From IMG/VR virus record IMGVR_UViG_3300025072_000031, positions 1 to 28,411 of that record: 28,411 nucleotides of DNA, one strand, 5' to 3'. A program made the translations under genes and the position numbers. The stretch comes from a virus. The notes beneath the pieces were generated by a model, which saw only the letters and a list, made by a program, of their open reading frames with translations, made no database searches and had not been told where the DNA came from. This document shows positions 122-23,900 of the stretch, piece after piece. How positions within the stretch are numbered: position 1 is the stretch's first letter; the number at the start of each line of letters is the position of its first letter.

Positions 122-138
122 TTATTAGTAATAGTAAA

Positions 139-241
139 AAAGAATGAGAGTAAGTCTCTTGAGTATGGTGGTACTCCAATCTTCCCACAGTTATCTCAAT
201 AATGAGCTCTCACACAAGATACGACTTACTGTTCATTCTTT
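139..241 (-). ncRNA. Structured small RNA, junction with two hairpins
   Basis: Outer pairing joins 140-147 (AAGAATGA) with 233-240 (TCATTCTT), and a second helix joins 151-156 (TAAGTC) with 223-228 (GACTTA). Inside sit two hairpins: 161-176 (GAGTA/TACTC) and 195-206 (CTCA/TGAG). On the minus strand the outer helix is followed by a T6 tract at 136-141, so the fold can itself act as terminator. No ORF of useful length is present. No motif copy directly precedes it; it probably continues from the motif at 350-365 past the hairpin at 253-279. Function unknown. Confidence 0.5.
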
Positions 242-248
242 ATGTTTT

Positions 249-349
249 AAAAACGAATGAGTTGTGGCACTCTATTCGTATGTAGTTCCATTTGTTGAGT
301 TTTATTTAACCACTACTCTTGTGTCGCTGAACCAAGCGAATTATTAATC
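249..349 (-). ncRNA. Structured small RNA with terminator
   Basis: It begins directly after the motif at 350-365 and contains no convincing ORF. Visible helices on the minus strand are TCGC/GCGA around a TTGGTTCA loop and a longer GTAGT/ACTAC arm. It ends in a terminator, ACGAAT plus GAGT (253-262) pairing with ACTC plus ATTCGT (269-279), followed by T5 on the minus strand. It does not show the conserved T-loop of a tRNA. Function unknown. Confidence 0.5.
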
Positions 350-367
350 TATTATTAATAGTAAAAA

Positions 368-388
368 AAGAAGACTATTTGTCTTCTT
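368..388 (-). terminator. Rho-independent terminator
   Basis: Perfect 8-bp stem AAGAAGAC (368-375) with GTCTTCTT (381-388), loop of 5 nt, followed on the minus strand by a T7 tract that runs into the next motif. It overlaps the stop codon of the 66-aa gene. Confidence 0.8.
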
Positions 389-575
389 CTTTATCGCTGG
401 TAAAAGTACTCTGTGCACTCTCTTTAGCTCGTTTACCATAGTTGGTAATCTTTTCTGTTGTCTTAGGACTATACTTACCTATCATTATCCAAATGAATAT
501 AATTGCAACAGCAAAGAATATACATTTAAGAAATGTTAGTACGATAACTAATGTCCAAATGATAAAATCTGTCAT
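375..575 (-). CDS. Small membrane protein, 66 aa
   Basis: The protein opens with MTDFIIWTLVIVLTFLKCIFF and continues hydrophobic to about residue 32, enough for one long or two short membrane segments. A charged tail follows, rich in Lys, Glu and Asp and ending KEEDK. No family is recognised. The start lies 23 nt after the motif at 599-614, and the stop (TAG) is inside a strong terminator, so this is a compact one-gene transcription unit. Such small phage membrane proteins often modify the host envelope or exclude other phages, but nothing in this sequence proves that. Confidence 0.7.
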   Translation of the reverse strand: MTDFIIWTLVIVLTFLKCIFFAVAIIFIWIMIGKYSPKTTEKITNYGKRAKESAQSTFTSDKEEDK

Positions 576-611
576 AGCTTTAAAGTATTAATTAATATTA
601 TTATTAATAGT

Positions 612-634
612 AAAAAAGAATGGCTAAATAGCCA
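612..634 (-). terminator. Rho-independent terminator
   Basis: Stem TGGCTA (621-626) with TAGCCA (629-634), 2-nt loop, then T6 on the minus strand (612-617) merging into the motif at 599-614. It overlaps the end of the 90-aa gene. Confidence 0.75.
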
Positions 635-896
635 CTCTTATGTTATCTGTCTCAAAGCAAGTACTCCAGTCAATATATGGCAAATCAGCATACATATCAA
701 CATCATAGTACATATCATCATAAGCTTGTTGTTTTGCAATCTCTTCCAAAGATGTAAGCTCATCTATTGGATAGAATACAGGTGTTCCTGTTAATGAATA
801 AGGACGATTACAGCTAACGCAATTAGCGTGTGTGTCAGACATTACGATACCCTTTTGGCTATCACAATTGTCGCACTCAATGAATGTAAGTTTCAT
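624..896 (-). CDS. Zinc-ribbon-like small protein, 90 aa
   Basis: Two cysteine pairs, CDNC near residue 8 and CVSC near residue 26, are spaced as in a four-cysteine zinc ribbon. The C-terminal half is acidic and rich in Tyr and Asp (YDDMYYDVDMYADLPY). No specific family is recognised. Zinc ribbons of this size are common in phage early proteins that bind nucleic acid or host proteins, which is a family expectation only. The ATG is 31 nt after the motif at 928-943. The stop is TAG and is followed at once by a terminator. Confidence 0.75.
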   Translation of the reverse strand: MKLTFIECDNCDSQKGIVMSDTHANCVSCNRPYSLTGTPVFYPIDELTSLEEIAKQQAYDDMYYDVDMYADLPYIDWSTCFETDNIRVAI

Positions 897-944
897 AATA
901 AATAGTTTAAGTTAGTAATATATTATCTATTATTAATTGTAAAA

Positions 945-1050
945 AAAAGAGAGTAGAATAAGAATCGAACTTATTTATCCTAAAGAATAACACAGGTCTT
1001 TTTAATTATCATCATAAATGATACTACCTAGCCAATCTATTCTCTTTATA
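945..1050 (-). ncRNA. tRNA-like RNA with a canonical T-arm
   Basis: On the minus strand ATAAG-TTCGATT-CTTAT forms a 5-bp T-stem around a consensus T-loop. The 5' and 3' ends pair as an acceptor-like helix (GAATAGA with TCTACTC, one A-C mismatch), and the pairing extends to a T8 tract. The 5' part reads TTGGCTAGGTAGTA, like a D-loop. The roughly 61 nt between acceptor and T-arm are too long for an ordinary tRNA, and no standard D-arm and anticodon arm pair cleanly. A 17-nt TATCA/TGATA hairpin with a 7-nt loop would give anticodon UAU. Another hairpin resembles a long variable arm. It could be a type II tRNA, a degraded tRNA or a tRNA mimic. Confidence 0.5.
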
Positions 1051-1078
1051 TTAATTAATACTTATTATTAATAGTAAA

Positions 1079-1180
1079 TATACTATACTGCACAGAATAC
1101 CACTGCCGTGAGGTTCTTGGACGCTGGGTGTGATTACTCGTATTTCAGAAACCAGGTTTGATTGAACGCAATATAATACA
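1079..1180 (-). ncRNA. Structured RNA closed by a 13-bp helix
   Basis: Positions 1168-1180 and 1079-1091 pair over 13 consecutive positions. All three non-Watson-Crick pairs are G-U on the minus strand and would be C-A mismatches on the plus strand, so the helix favours a leftward RNA. The inner 76 nt hold at least one hairpin, CAC/GTG at 1101-1110 inside AGAA/TTCT. It starts 6 nt after the motif at 1187-1202 and ends against the motif at 1063-1078. There is no ORF. The fold does not match a tRNA or a riboswitch that I recognise. Confidence 0.5.
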
Positions 1181-1203
1181 CTTACTTATTTATAATTGTA
1201 AAA

Positions 1204-1227
1204 AAAGAGAGCCGTTAGGCTCTCTTT
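1204..1227 (-). terminator. Rho-independent terminator, perfect 10-bp stem
   Basis: AAAGAGAGCC (1204-1213) pairs with GGCTCTCTTT (1218-1227) around a 4-nt loop. The minus strand continues with a T7 tract. It ends the RNA at 1228-1296 and abuts the motif at 1187-1202. Confidence 0.85.
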
Positions 1228-1296
1228 AATATGTGATTTTCGCCTAAGAGGTAGGTGGCGTATGGTGTTAACCATATGGACTCACAGTATTATCCC
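1228..1296 (-). ncRNA. Structured small RNA, three-way junction
   Basis: A closing helix TGTGA (1232-1236) with TCACA (1282-1286) encloses two hairpins: CGCC/GGCG (1241-1260) and TATGGT-GTTA-ACCATA (1261-1276). The RNA starts right after the motif at 1297-1312 and ends in the strong terminator at 1204-1227. On the minus strand ATGGTTAACAC resembles some tRNA D-loops, but there is no T-loop and the arms do not fit a tRNA. No ORF is present. The two-hairpin junction resembles the element at 139-241 in shape. Confidence 0.55.
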
Positions 1297-1312
1297 TATT
1301 ATTAATAGTAAA

Positions 1313-1462
1313 TAATCTTCTATGTGCGGAGCAATTAGAATGATATTAAATTGTGAGCGAAGCGAACACTATATTAATGAAAGATGGTGTTACGAGCAAA
1401 CTGATCGTAGATCAGCTATGATTTATCATAGAATATGCGAAGCATATATTTGCGAGTTGTTT
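1313..1462. other. Non-coding segment with a perfect cloverleaf (1396-1453)
   Basis: This stretch lies between the terminator at 1463-1506 and the motif at 1297-1312, so no motif drives it leftward. GCAAA (1396-1400) pairs with TTTGC (1449-1453) and encloses three perfect hairpins in a row: CTGATC/GATCAG (1401-1415), CTATGAT/ATCATAG (1416-1431) and ATATGC/GCATAT (1433-1447). Loops are only 2-3 nt. At 1353-1369 a further hairpin-like GTG...CAC element surrounds two AGCG repeats. The loops carry no tRNA consensus. It could be a structured RNA from either strand or a DNA site bound or cut as a cruciform. Confidence 0.5.
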
Positions 1463-1506
1463 AAAAAAGAGAGCGAGTTATATAGTTTACCACTCTATTC
1501 ACTCTC
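1463..1506 (-). terminator. Rho-independent terminator
   Basis: GAGAGCGA (1469-1476) pairs with TCACTCTC (1499-1506), one G-U pair on the minus strand, followed by T6 on that strand. It closes the unit that starts at the motif 1654-1669. Confidence 0.65.
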
Positions 1507-1587
1507 TTTTGTTGAACTATTTGTTGTCATTATGTATTGATTGTATGTTCTAAGGTTAATTACTCCTTTCGTTTCCACTATCGTCAT
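1495..1587 (-). CDS. Possible 30-aa peptide or part of a structured RNA
   Basis: The frame reads MTIVETKGVINLRTYNQYIM and ends TKESE with a TAG stop inside the terminator stem. A longer in-frame start at 1689 lies upstream of the motif at 1654-1669 and inside the neighbouring terminator, so I do not use it. The chosen ATG is 66 nt past the motif, farther than for other genes here. The leader between contains a TACAA/TTGTA hairpin (near 1620-1636). The unit could equally be non-coding. Confidence 0.3.
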   Translation of the reverse strand: MTIVETKGVINLRTYNQYIMTTNSSTKESE

Positions 1588-1668
1588 AGATTTTCGGTTA
1601 GTAAGTAAGACTATTATATCTGTACAATCATTTGTATAATATGAATGGTAATTTATTATTAATAGTAA

Positions 1669-1724
1669 AAAAAGAACTAACCAAATCAAGTCGTAGTTAC
1701 TTATGTCAAGGGTTAGCTCTTTTT
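1669..1724 (-). ncRNA. Minimal hairpin RNA with terminator stem
   Basis: AAAAAGAACTAACC (1669-1682) pairs with GGTTAGCTCTTTTT (1711-1724), a 14-bp stem with one G-U pair on the minus strand. A smaller AAGT/ACTT hairpin (1688-1702, 7-nt loop) is inside. The unit begins 14 nt after the motif at 1739-1754 and ends in a T-tract merging with the motif at 1654-1669. The whole unit is about 70 nt, too small for a protein of any size. Confidence 0.55.
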
Positions 1725-1755
1725 GTATTATGAAATACTATTATTAATAGTAAAA

Positions 1756-1843
1756 AAAGAGAGAGAGTACGCAGTCTGTATCGAAGATCAAGGTTGCGAT
1801 CCTTGCATTAAATCTTTGCTCGTTACAGACACCTCTCTCTCTA
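1756..1843 (-). ncRNA. Long bulged hairpin RNA at the end of the 70-aa gene unit
   Basis: Nested perfect helices are AGAGAGAGAG (1758-1767) with CTCTCTCTCT (1833-1842), GTCTGTA (1774-1780) with TACAGAC (1824-1830), AAGAT (1784-1788) with ATCTT (1812-1816), and CAAGG (1789-1793) with CCTTG (1801-1805) around a 7-nt loop. The unpaired bulges are on one side only. A T7 tract follows on the minus strand. There is no motif between it and the stop of the 70-aa gene at 1854, so it may be that gene's structured 3' end. The last hairpin resembles an anticodon arm, but a T-arm is absent. Confidence 0.5.
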
Positions 1844-1853
1844 TTAATCATCA

Positions 1854-2066
1854 TTACCAACCAGTTGAGAATACGGAACCACCATCACCTTCTTCTTGAT
1901 TGTTATCTGAACTCTCTTCATATCTTATTCTCTCTTTGATTGCTTCTTCAGCATCTTTTACTGCTTTCATATAATCTTTATGAGCGTAATAATTGTTTTC
2001 AGATGGAACAGGGTTATCTAAGAGATCAGCTAATGTTGCTTTAAGACTTTGTAATATTGTCTTCAT
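1854..2066 (-). CDS. Small helical hypothetical protein, 70 aa
   Basis: The N-terminus MKTILQSLKATLADLL is amphipathic and helical. It is followed by a charged helix with KDAEEAIKERIRYEES and an acidic tail EEGDGGSVFSTGW. There is no signal peptide and no recognised family. The ATG is 25 nt after the motif at 2092-2107, consistent with the other micro-genes. The stop is TAA, 11 nt before a long structured element that ends in a T-tract. Confidence 0.6.
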   Translation of the reverse strand: MKTILQSLKATLADLLDNPVPSENNYYAHKDYMKAVKDAEEAIKERIRYEESSDNNQEEGDGGSVFSTGW

Positions 2067-2117
2067 TTTATTATATGTTTTGATTAATACTTATTAGTAA
2101 TTGTAAAAGGTAATGAA

Positions 2118-2240
2118 CTACCAAAAGATAGTCCAATACCATAAGCCAAATGATTTATTATACCCTGTATCTATAAATCCTTTTGTTAAATTAGAATAAC
2201 CAAAGTGTCTTGCATGAGATACTGTTTTAAATACTTTCAT
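2118..2240 (-). CDS. Hypothetical 40-aa protein
   Basis: The frame runs MKVFKTVSHARHFGYSNLTK to a C-terminus rich in aromatic residues (GLWYWTIFW) and ends in TAG. It is basic at the start and hydrophobic at the end. The ATG lies 23 nt after the motif at 2264-2279, the same spacing as the better-supported neighbours, which is the main reason to call it. A weak GGTA/TACC hairpin follows before the next motif. No family is recognised. Confidence 0.5.
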   Translation of the reverse strand: MKVFKTVSHARHFGYSNLTKGFIDTGYNKSFGLWYWTIFW

Positions 2241-2279
2241 AACATTATATATTAATTAATACTTATTAGTAATTGTAAA

Positions 2280-2573
2280 TCAGTCATTTAAATAAATAAG
2301 ATGTAGTGAAGTTAACTATTTTATGCTAAATGACTTGACATTGTCATTTAAAATGTATAACTTCGCCCATTCAATAACTGATGTTGTTTTAAACAGTTAA
2401 ATAGAATAGATATACTATTATAACCTATAAACAATGATAAATATTCAATAACATATTGATAATCAGTTAGTTATATTATTTATTCTTAATATTATGTTAT
2501 TATTAGAGTATTATTAATAGGAGTATACTCTATATTACTCACACTTCAATACAGGATAATTATACACTTTTAG
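2280..2573. other. AT-rich gene-free stretch with inverted and direct repeats
   Basis: No ORF or complete motif copy is seen in about 295 nt. AGTCATTTA near 2281 pairs with TAAATGACT near 2326-2334 to form a wide hairpin, and a third GTCATTTA copy follows near 2345. A partial motif, TATTATTAATAGGAG near 2509, lacks the GTAAA end. The composition would suit an origin or a regulatory spacer, but no defined origin boxes are visible. Confidence 0.3.
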
Positions 2574-2598
2574 CAAAAAAAGAGACTAACTGTCTCTT
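2574..2598 (-). terminator. Rho-independent terminator
   Basis: AAGAGAC (2580-2586) pairs with GTCTCTT (2592-2598), 5-nt loop, followed on the minus strand by T7. It overlaps the stop codon of the 43-aa gene at 2586-2717. Confidence 0.8.
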
Positions 2599-2717
2599 AA
2601 TTCTTTAATACTCTTGTTTAATCGTGCTATACTTTTATCTAATTCATAGTTTCTACCCATATAGAAAGCTATAAAAGCAATTTCAATAGCAATTATAATT
2701 TGTATAATAGTTTCCAT
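2586..2717 (-). CDS. Single-pass membrane micro-protein, 43 aa
   Basis: The sequence starts METIIQIIIAIEIAFIAFYM, a clear membrane helix directly at the N-terminus. A cytosol-type charged helix with GRNYELDKSIARLNKSIKEL follows. The frame ends in TAG inside a perfect terminator. The ATG is 23 nt after the motif at 2741-2756. Its layout resembles small phage membrane proteins of unknown role. It is not in a known holin family that I can name. Confidence 0.6.
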   Translation of the reverse strand: METIIQIIIAIEIAFIAFYMGRNYELDKSIARLNKSIKELRDS

Positions 2718-2756
2718 AATACATTTATTTAGTTAATACTTATAGTCAATAGTAAA

Positions 2757-2779
2757 AAAAAGAGAGCATTAGCTTCTCT
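2757..2779 (-). terminator. Rho-independent terminator
   Basis: AAGAGAGC (2760-2767) pairs with GCTTCTCT (2772-2779), with one bulged base, followed by T8 on the minus strand merging into the motif at 2741-2756. It overlaps the end of the 43-aa gene at 2769-2900. Confidence 0.7.
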
Positions 2780-2900
2780 CTTCTGTAGTTTTACCACACT
2801 TATCTTTTATATTGTTAATATCATTCTGGAATTTATCAGAATTAAATGTTGTATACTTAAGTATCAGTATGGTTGCAATGATTGCCCCTAAAGTTGTCAT
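2769..2900 (-). CDS. Micro-protein with hydrophobic N-terminus, 43 aa
   Basis: The sequence begins MTTLGAIIATILILKYTTFN, a short membrane-type segment. A polar tail with SDKFQNDINNIKDKCGKTTE ends at a TAA stop. The ATG is 25 nt after the motif at 2926-2941, which is the right-most motif and the first leftward unit from the divergence point. It has the same hydrophobic-then-charged plan as the 43-aa neighbour but no clear sequence identity to it. Confidence 0.55.
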   Translation of the reverse strand: MTTLGAIIATILILKYTTFNSDKFQNDINNIKDKCGKTTEERS

Positions 2901-2953
2901 GACTGTGTAGGTATTGATTAATAGTCATATGTAATAGTAAACTGAGAATTTAG

Positions 2954-3036: not shown

Positions 3037-3044
3037 TATCTTTG
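3037..3044 (+). promoter_or_regulatory. Bacteroidota-type promoter for the late genes, TATCTTTG
   Basis: TATCTTTG fits the TAnnTTTG -7 consensus of Bacteroidota. It is followed by a 30-nt AT-rich leader and the ATG at 3075. No TTG was seen at the usual -33 distance. It is the first promoter of the rightward block. Confidence 0.6.
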
Positions 3045-20900: not shown

Positions 20901-23900
20901 ATGCCACAAAAACCTACAAAAAGTAAAGCTCAGGGATTTACGCATGGACTGGTTAGTGATGCCGATCCTAGATTCCAAATTAAAGGAAGTTATTCTGATG
21001 CAATGAATATTAGATTAACTAATGATACAGGTAATACTTTTACAGTTGAAAATATAAATGGTAATACTTTATTTGTAGATTTATATGCTCTTAGTTATCA
21101 AAATAAAGAAGATGTATACAATGCTTCAACAGCTGGATTGCTTGGAACAAGAACAGATATAGCTGGAGGTTCAGCCCCAGCCCCCACTGATTATTTTTCA
21201 GAAATATATTGGGATCCAAGTAATACAGATTCTAATGGAAATCCAGTTGGGCCACTTTATCCGAGTCCATTAGCCACTCCTCCAGTTGTTAATGGTGATG
21301 GCGTATTTCCCTTTCATGATTATAATGCAGATTCATTAGAATATAAATCAAGTGTTGTAGGATATACATCTTTTGGTAATGAATTAATATTAATTATTGT
21401 AAATGAGAGTTCTTTTATAAGGAAAGCTACTAGTCCTTTTTACCAAGCTGATCCAAATGGATCAACTAATAGAACTATATTTTTAAGAATAGTTTTTGAT
21501 AATAATATGAATGTAGTAAAAGTAGAAGATTTAGCTGTATGTTATTCTCATCAAGATGATCATTATCCTAATCTTGGTATGAAAATAGATGCGCCTGTAC
21601 GAGTTGAGGCTATGATTGAAAATGAATGTATTACTAGAATATATTGGACAGATAATATAAATCCATTAAGAACTTTAAATGTAGCCCAAGAAGGGAAAAA
21701 TCAATTAAATCCTACTTCTTTAGATATTACTCCGTTAATGAATCCCTCTCAACCTGTTTTAGATATGACTATTAACGGATCATTACCTGTGGGAGTTTAT
21801 CAATATACATATAAATATGTTTCTGCAAATGGAGGAGAAACAACATTTTCTCCTTTAAGTAATCTATATCATGTATCTGATCAATCATTCTCTAATTCGC
21901 AAACATATGGAGGTGGGCCTAAAGGAGAATTAGGTACTCAAGGTTTTAGATTAAATATAGATGATTTAGATCAATCTTTTACTTATATAGAATTATATGC
22001 TTTAATGTATGAAGATTTAAATTTTCCTCCTAGAATTGCTTTAATAGATAGAAAAAGACTCACTGGATTAGTTCAAACATCTTTCACTCATATTTCTTGG
22101 AATAACGAAATAGAGAATGGATTAGAAGAAATACTAATTGAATCTAATACTTGGGATATATGTAAAGATATTGCAATAAAAGATAATATATTATTTGCGG
22201 CTAATCTTAGACAGAAAAAGAATTGGATTTCAGAAAAGGAATGGAATGTTAAAGTTTTAAGATATAATATAGAAGATGGTGGTATAGGAGCAGCTGCAGC
22301 TGCATTTGAAGATGGTATTTTAACTACTAATGATCCAGAAGTAAAGCATTATGAAGGTGATGGATCTGGTGGTTTCCAAATTCCAGAAATTGCGTCAGTT
22401 TCACAACCCTGTACAGGACATCTGCATAGTAATAAAGAACATCGTCCTGCTTGGGCTACATTTATAGATCTTCAAAGAGATGGTTCTGCCGCTGCTTTAA
22501 CTGGTGCTATTAAAAAAAGAGAAGAATATAGATTTTTAAGAGATGGAGTAACATTAGGAGGAGAAAGTTGGGATTATGAAGAAAATGAATTAGGTGGATG
22601 TCGTGTAACTTTTGGATTAGAAGAAAAAGTTGCAGATGTTACTACAAATGACGGGAACAAACCTTATGTTTCTAGTGTAAATAATGGAGCAGAAGAATTT
22701 CAAACTGATAATGTTTGGGGAGTGCCACAAGTTACAGGTAATAATACAGACAATACAAATACTACATTCCATACATCAATGTCTATAGCTGGAAGTATGG
22801 ATCCTCATAATGCAGGTAATAAAAGAGGTTATCAAAGAGGTGAAATATATAGATTTGGAGTTCAAATCTATGATTTAAATGGAGCTCCAGGAAATGTATT
22901 GTGGATTGGAGATATACAGATGCCAGAAATGTATGATGTATTAAGACAATTAGATCCTACTAATAGTGGGTATAATCCTTTGGCTGCTACAGTAAATGCA
23001 CAAACATGGATTGGAGCTTTAAGCGAAGAAAATGTTTTTGTGTCTCTTGGTAAGGCTGTAGATCATAGATTATCATATCTATATGGACATACAATACCTC
23101 CAGTGGATGTAAATTGGTTTACTGGCAGAACTGCAGATTCATCTACAAGGGCTGATGCTTATTTAGATGCTAATGGAGAGCTACAAGATTTTGGTCATAA
23201 TATTGCAAATAGATTAAATCCTGTTACATTTGATACAGCCTCTGGAGGAAACTTAAATGCAAAATGGTTTCCATGGTGGGATAGATCTACTTCTCCTGCA
23301 TCGGCTGGATTAGCAAATTCTGATGATAAACATTATTTATTCGATTTATATGTAAATTTTGAATTTATAATACCAGATACAATAATGAAAAAGATGTCTG
23401 GATTTAGAGTGGTAAGAGCAGAAAGAACAGAAAATGATAGAAGAATTATTCAGCAAGGTATTTTAAATCAAACAATGATGTATGGAAGGGCTTCAAGTGG
23501 TCTTGATAGCGGATATGATTTAGATTTTTGTTGGTCTGTAAAAGATAATGAAAGCTTAGATGATGATCCAGTATTTACTAATGATTATCTTGTTTCTGGC
23601 CCCTCTGTTCCAGTACAGCCAGAATACGATACATATTTAAATGGTTATATGGGATTAGCTGAAAATAATCATTTAGCCTGGTATGTTGGAGGAGTAGGAG
23701 ATGGAACATTAACATCTGGTGATACTGCTGGGATGATATATGCTCATCCAGAAAATGAAGATGGTAGAGTAAGAGTTGGCCATAGTACTTCTCCTCCTCA
23801 TGTAAGTGCTGTACCATGGCCTTATAGAGTTGGTAATACTCCTGCAGGTAATGATGCTTTAGGAGAACATCCAGGACCAGGAGCATTAGGTAAATTTCAG

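Follow-up and report, generated by a model that had tools for sequence, protein, structure and literature searches.

Thirteen probable early promoters in a crAss-like phage array, of a type that appears to change with virion RNA polymerase lineage

What reads a short motif that recurs thirteen times, always on the same strand, at the start of a phage early module? The question is raised by the first 2.9 kb of IMG/VR record IMGVR_UViG_3300025072_000031, a complete viral record of 28,411 bases that represents a fragment of the phage genome (hereafter, the window). This leftward region is the beginning of a divergent, early-side module, and its motif copies each precede a tiny open reading frame (ORF) or an RNA-only unit. 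The rightward genes include a crAss-type terminase, portal, and major capsid protein, matching the PHROG terminase, portal, and major head families; the best matches of the terminase are crAss phages, with 28–30% identity over at least 90% of its length. On these three genes, we assign the phage to the crAss-like phages (Crassvirales). We compared the window with near-identical and related contigs from viral collections (G and L numbers). The motifs are probably early promoters read by transcription machinery that the phage itself encodes, the crAss-like virion RNA polymerase being the most likely candidate.

A weight matrix for the motif, TTTACTATTAATAATA (motif A), identified twelve strong leftward copies in the first 2.9 kb, and one weak copy is also present. 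The 5' ends of the twelve copies above threshold lie at 2756, 2279, 2107, 1754, 1669, 1312, 1202, 1078, 943, 614, 365, and 138; the weaker thirteenth (TTTACTATTACATATG) opens the array at 2941, confirming the thirteen same-strand copies counted in an earlier note on this DNA. The matrix found no motif A match on the forward strand of the array and a single isolated match in the remainder of the 28.4 kb, at 21403, antisense within a structural gene. By Markov shuffles, the chance expectation is 0.2 matches per window, both strands together. A looser motif A pattern scanned over all viral contigs was dominated by unrelated AT-rich contigs and was not used. The array runs on past the left edge of the window, where the near-identical contig L056 carries two further motif copies.

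Eight of the copies are entered directly from a T-run of 6–8 residues that itself follows a G+C-rich hairpin (ACTATTAATAATA), bearing out the suggestion that the T-tract of one unit merges into the motif of the next. The other copies have no upstream terminator and keep a shorter TTT at the motif start, which indicates that the TTT belongs to the motif and not just to the terminator. The base directly after the motif is a purine at all 75 of 75 sites.

The 43.9-kb relative G002 spans the array, the whole early module, and a portion of the late one. Each of its ten matrix matches lies on the leftward, early strand; the strong matches are confined to the first 2 kb of the array, and weaker copies stand upstream of more early genes. 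The motif is restricted to early genes and to one orientation. Random positions on both strands, which the earlier note had named as the finding that would speak against a promoter, were observed neither in the window nor in G002.

Further evidence comes from relatives that carry another version of the motif. Marine crAss-like relatives of the window have either motif A or a second motif, TTTCAACTTAATAATA (motif C). The latter relatives first seemed motif-free, and motif C was recognised by listing the words that follow terminator T-runs (TTTTTT then CAACTTAATAATA). The two versions share the TTT, TTAATAATA, and the following purine, and differ in four bases (ACTA versus CAAC). Counting all units at a score of at least 15.5, the A genomes contain 48 A sites and one C site, and the C genomes 28 C sites and no A site. 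When both matrices were applied to twelve long records, the A records gave zero C matches on the early strand and the C records almost no A matches. Three early gene groups occur in both kinds of phage, namely the GMFVREHTF proteins, the YMKDLKKLL proteins, and small CxxC proteins; members of each sit 20–35 nt behind an A motif in A genomes or a C motif in C genomes. That the motif switched at many sites while the genes stayed points to one trans-acting reader with changed specificity. Taken together, the fixed strand and place, the restriction to the early module in G002, and the coordinated change before orthologous genes strongly support the proposal that the motif is promoter-like, and we infer that it starts transcription. 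In the more distant L126 and L133, the early strand carries a third junction word (TTTTTTT then GTTATATATAAGTATTAATT), possibly a third promoter version. More distant polymerase-bearing contigs, which were set aside, have different junction motifs or none.

The late promoter serves as a control for this comparison. Where the two modules diverge, the rightward late operon carries TATCTTTG (3037–3044, forward strand), a host-type -7 box with an AT-rich tract ahead of it. The same sequence stands at the divergence point in the window, L078, L086, L060, and L099 (all A), in nine C genomes, and in L126 and L133 of the third group. The late signal is therefore constant while the early signal switches. 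On this evidence, the motif is most likely a promoter whose reader is a phage factor specific to the lineage and not the host.

The leading candidate for this factor lies outside the window. Long relatives, with terminases at least 85% identical to that of the window, encode a giant late protein of 3,700–4,100 amino acids with a DLDGD motif (DxDGD type). Sequence searches of phage records and PDB sequences by tblastn and profile search found no known relative of this protein. We modelled residues 1690–2790 from 30 relatives (predicted local distance difference test score, pLDDT, 82), and the best match of the modelled core, by a wide margin, was the phi14:2 virion polymerase 6VR4 (Foldseek E 1.6e-23; Z 21.6 over 932 residues), with the QDE-1 family next among the fold matches. 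The giant protein is thus predicted to have the two-barrel fold of the phi14:2 virion RNA polymerase.

The polymerase tree separates the two motif types. One clade, with support of 100/100, comprises G013, G002, and G019, all A; the other, with support of 99/100, comprises G020, G041, G030, G025, G015, G018, and G024, all C. For G041 the polymerase was found first and the motif typed as C afterwards. G019 was typed as A from contig L076, which bears the A motif and shares a 6.3-kb overlap with G019 at 100%. The terminase tree differs in placing G013 near G015, G018, and G024, and forcing a terminase-like grouping on the polymerase alignment costs 621 log units (approximately unbiased, AU, test, p 0.0005). 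Divergence between A and C polymerases peaks at about residues 460–760, 980–1050, and 2570–2730 of the G018 protein. Motif type thus appears to change with polymerase lineage, an association that is not unique to the polymerase gene. Two other accounts of this association were considered and set aside. The A/C difference probably does not just reflect kinship of the phages, as the terminase tree groups the genomes otherwise, though the ten-genome test alone is non-significant. The capsid gene also separates G013 and G019 in this way; however, it is unlikely to be the true partner of the motif because the window is A yet has a C-like capsid (81% identity, versus 58–60% to A).

Several observations weigh against the virion polymerase as reader. 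The A clade was not significantly rejected by the terminase in the ten-genome test (p 0.116), and the A/C split occurred just once in the polymerase tree, hence one contrast. In a quartet test, 9–10 of 24–26 gene families, the major capsid protein included, back the same split; the genomes are mosaics. C-like sites occur in two A genomes, one (TTTCTACTT) upstream of a mid-module gene in G003 and another in G019. The polymerase gene of this phage falls past the right end of the window, whose last gene, used as a search query, gave no relative. Finally, there is no comparable motif-terminator array in the early regions of phi14:2 or crAss001, so that the array is not general in crAss-like phages. 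The link to the virion polymerase raised in the earlier note has nevertheless gained a congruent polymerase tree and a structural homologue in 6VR4; we regard the polymerase as reader as well supported by congruence, but not proven.

That several other late genes share the A/C split also leaves room for another phage factor, i.e., a second polymerase or an early sigma-like or activator protein, acting alone or with the host polymerase. Much of the early protein repertoire in these phages lacks an assigned function, and the second, non-virion polymerase of phage P23-45 has its own promoter class (PMC10770324). We nonetheless consider such a factor unlikely, given that the array opens the leftward module and its first transcripts need a reader already in the cell or virion; moreover, no other polymerase or sigma signature was seen in the early module, which was not exhaustively searched. 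It is very unlikely that the motifs are instead host promoters, or an AT-rich upstream element for the host housekeeping polymerase. In phages with the common TATCTTTG late promoter, all early units have changed from A to C, and a common host polymerase leaves such a change unexplained unless the hosts differ, even though the sequence is very AT-rich and many phages rely by default on the host polymerase. Of the Bacteroidetes host promoter (-33 TTTG, -7 TAnnTTTG), the TAnnTTTG box is absent from the array strand, which is weak evidence since about two would be expected.

Least likely of all is that the motif does not start transcription but acts as a processing site in a polycistronic transcript, a translation leader, or a recombination site for cassettes. 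Per-unit terminators would be pointless in a long transcript. RNA-only units are also preceded by the motif, which therefore is no translation signal, although most ORF units do have a second AT-rich leader element (TATTAATTAA..., AGTATTAATTAA...) separating the motif from the start codon (e.g., window 2262–2241). This second element is also found upstream of early genes without a motif and is probably a translation leader. As to recombination, cassette exchange does occur at the motif; however, repeated homology explains exchange at the junctions without a special site, and an integrase was sought only in general family searches.

Under the virion polymerase reading, the enzyme would enter with the DNA on infection and initiate at every motif copy, the probable start point being the purine that follows AATA. 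Each initiation would yield one short mRNA or small RNA, and transcription would stop at the hairpin and T-run of the unit, the final Ts also forming the first bases of the promoter that comes next. The cassettes would hence be transcribed independently, so that one could be inserted or deleted with no effect on those beside it, and the late structural genes would run the opposite way from the host-type TATCTTTG promoter. Sister phages would have switched polymerase lineage and the full set of early promoters together, from ACTATT (A) to CAACTT (C).

Comparison of relatives supports the earlier description of the units as interchangeable cassettes, with cassette-sized insertions and deletions found precisely at junctions. 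In the window the membrane-protein unit adjoins the RNA unit, whereas in G005 a 429-bp cassette, clean at both junctions, separates the two. L086 and L078 differ by two units lost and one gained, again at motif junctions. The 66-amino-acid membrane ORF precedes a conserved non-coding block in L060 but follows this block in the window. One cassette has a leader (the motif and some 30 nt more) that matches those of unrelated cassettes. These patterns are consistent with exchange by homologous recombination between repeated junctions, which would require no dedicated enzyme.

We judge a wider proposal as evenly balanced. Marine crAss-like phages may have at least two mutually exclusive early-promoter codes, the switch between them consisting of virion polymerase exchange plus the rewriting of every early promoter. 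The junctions may form an integrase-free platform that collects and swaps tiny proteins and small RNAs, in the manner of an integron with a promoter per cassette.

The array contains six ORFs of 40–90 amino acids and about seven RNA-only units between motifs, all on the reverse strand. Its coding part begins behind the weak copy (2926–2941) with a 43-amino-acid ORF with a hydrophobic N-terminus (2769–2900). Copy 2 (TTTACTATTGACTATA, 2741–2756), immediately behind the terminator hairpin and T-run of this unit, precedes a second 43-amino-acid ORF (2586–2717) with its own hairpin and T-run at 2581. Beyond the non-coding block at 2280–2578, copy 3 (TTTACAATTACTAATA, 2264–2279) precedes a 40-amino-acid ORF (2118–2240), and copy 4 (2092–2107) a 70-amino-acid ORF (1854–2066) followed by a long structured 3' part with a terminator (1866–1751, z -2.6). 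Nearer the left edge, copy 10 (TTTACAATTAATAATA, 928–943) heads a 90-amino-acid ORF with two CxxC pairs (624–896), similar to the CxxC-bearing early genes that follow motif A or motif C in the relatives, and copy 11 (consensus, 599–614) the 66-amino-acid membrane-type ORF (375–575).

The RNA-only units lie mainly between these ORFs. Behind copy 5 (consensus, 1739–1754) is a unit with a 5' hairpin directly after the motif and a terminator stem (1666–1738, z -5.45), and behind copy 6 (consensus, 1654–1669) one with a terminator (1463–1653). Copy 7 (consensus, 1297–1312) leads into a unit with a strong terminator hairpin (1199–1296, z -4.49), copy 8 (TTTACAATTATAAATA, 1187–1202) into one that folds no better than shuffles (1079–1186), and copy 9 (consensus, 1063–1078) into one containing a tRNA-like GTTCGATTC arm (TTCGATT; 944–1062). 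Copy 12 (consensus, 350–365) precedes one unit with two RNA modules (136–349; modules 349–249 and 260–136), 118 bp of which are conserved in the relative G005 (96%). Copy 13 (TTTACTATTACTAATA, 123–138) starts the next unit (1–122), with the array continuing past the window edge in L056.

The earlier note placed structured RNAs between the motifs, which holds for some units only. Folding compared with shuffles gave z scores of -5.5 at 1738–1666, -4.5 at 1296–1199, and about -2 to -2.6 for three others, whereas three RNA units folded no better than shuffles (z -0.6 to -1.2). No Rfam family matched in the window at E <=1, and neither ARAGORN nor Rfam called a tRNA or transfer-messenger RNA (tmRNA) there, the 944–1062 unit included. 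The counterpart of the 1754 RNA unit in L060 (319–130, reverse strand) has gained 104 nt after its 5' hairpin, an additional module that ends in a long stem and T-run of its own, which suggests that RNA modules are also gained or lost within a unit. The early module of G002 (about 38700–39200, reverse strand; L145 and L146) carries a series of structured non-coding segments without the motif.

Similarly, the layout of one motif per unit describes most of the array, but not the non-coding stretches at 1466–1313 and 2578–2280, which have no motif of their own. The latter block, which carries GCGAAGTTATACATTTTAAATGACANTGTCAAG, is conserved in both A and C relatives (68–86% identity), where it likewise follows the initial one or two units. 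It is origin-like and could be a replication origin, a packaging site, or a control site.

If read as proposed, the array is a clean promoter candidate with a built-in control, i.e., two promoter versions and two polymerase lineages that are predicted not to cross. The early locus is apparently built to acquire and discard tiny counter-host genes and RNAs rapidly, and may hold unknown anti-host functions of an abundant virus group.

Among characterised systems, phi14:2 is the natural reference. Its virion polymerase makes the early transcripts, which are rifampicin-resistant, and its late genes are probably transcribed by the host polymerase (review, PMC10136315); packaging of the polymerase in the virion and its injection are known from the literature for phi14:2 and crAss001. 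The phi14:2 polymerase (gp66, 6VR4) is a giant single-chain two-barrel enzyme with a DxDGD centre encoded in the late module, a fold that the relatives of the window share, and the early module likewise diverges from the structural module. Unlike the fold, the sequence of the relatives' polymerase is too distant from that of phi14:2 for tblastn or profile search. Our literature search, which extended to sources other than the primary phi14:2 paper, found no promoter described for a crAss-like virion polymerase.

The closest precedent for the comparative logic that links a motif to a virion polymerase is P23-45, in which the virion polymerase (gp96) is associated with an AT-rich conserved motif before the first genes and special terminators near those genes, and relatives without the virion polymerase also lack the motif (PMC10770324). 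It differs in being a Thermus siphovirus with its polymerase fused to the tape measure protein (PMC10770324). Two exclusive motif versions among P23-45 relatives have not been reported, and neither have RNA cassettes. N4 is alike in that its early genes are transcribed by an injected polymerase. However, the N4 enzyme is a T7-like polymerase that recognises hairpin promoters, unlike motif A, in which no hairpin was seen. The division into A and C resembles that among the T7, T3, and SP6 polymerases, for which a constant AT-rich part and a few changed bases make mutually exclusive promoter sets; those enzymes belong to another polymerase family, and the exchange described here would have taken place within one genus-like group of environmental phages.

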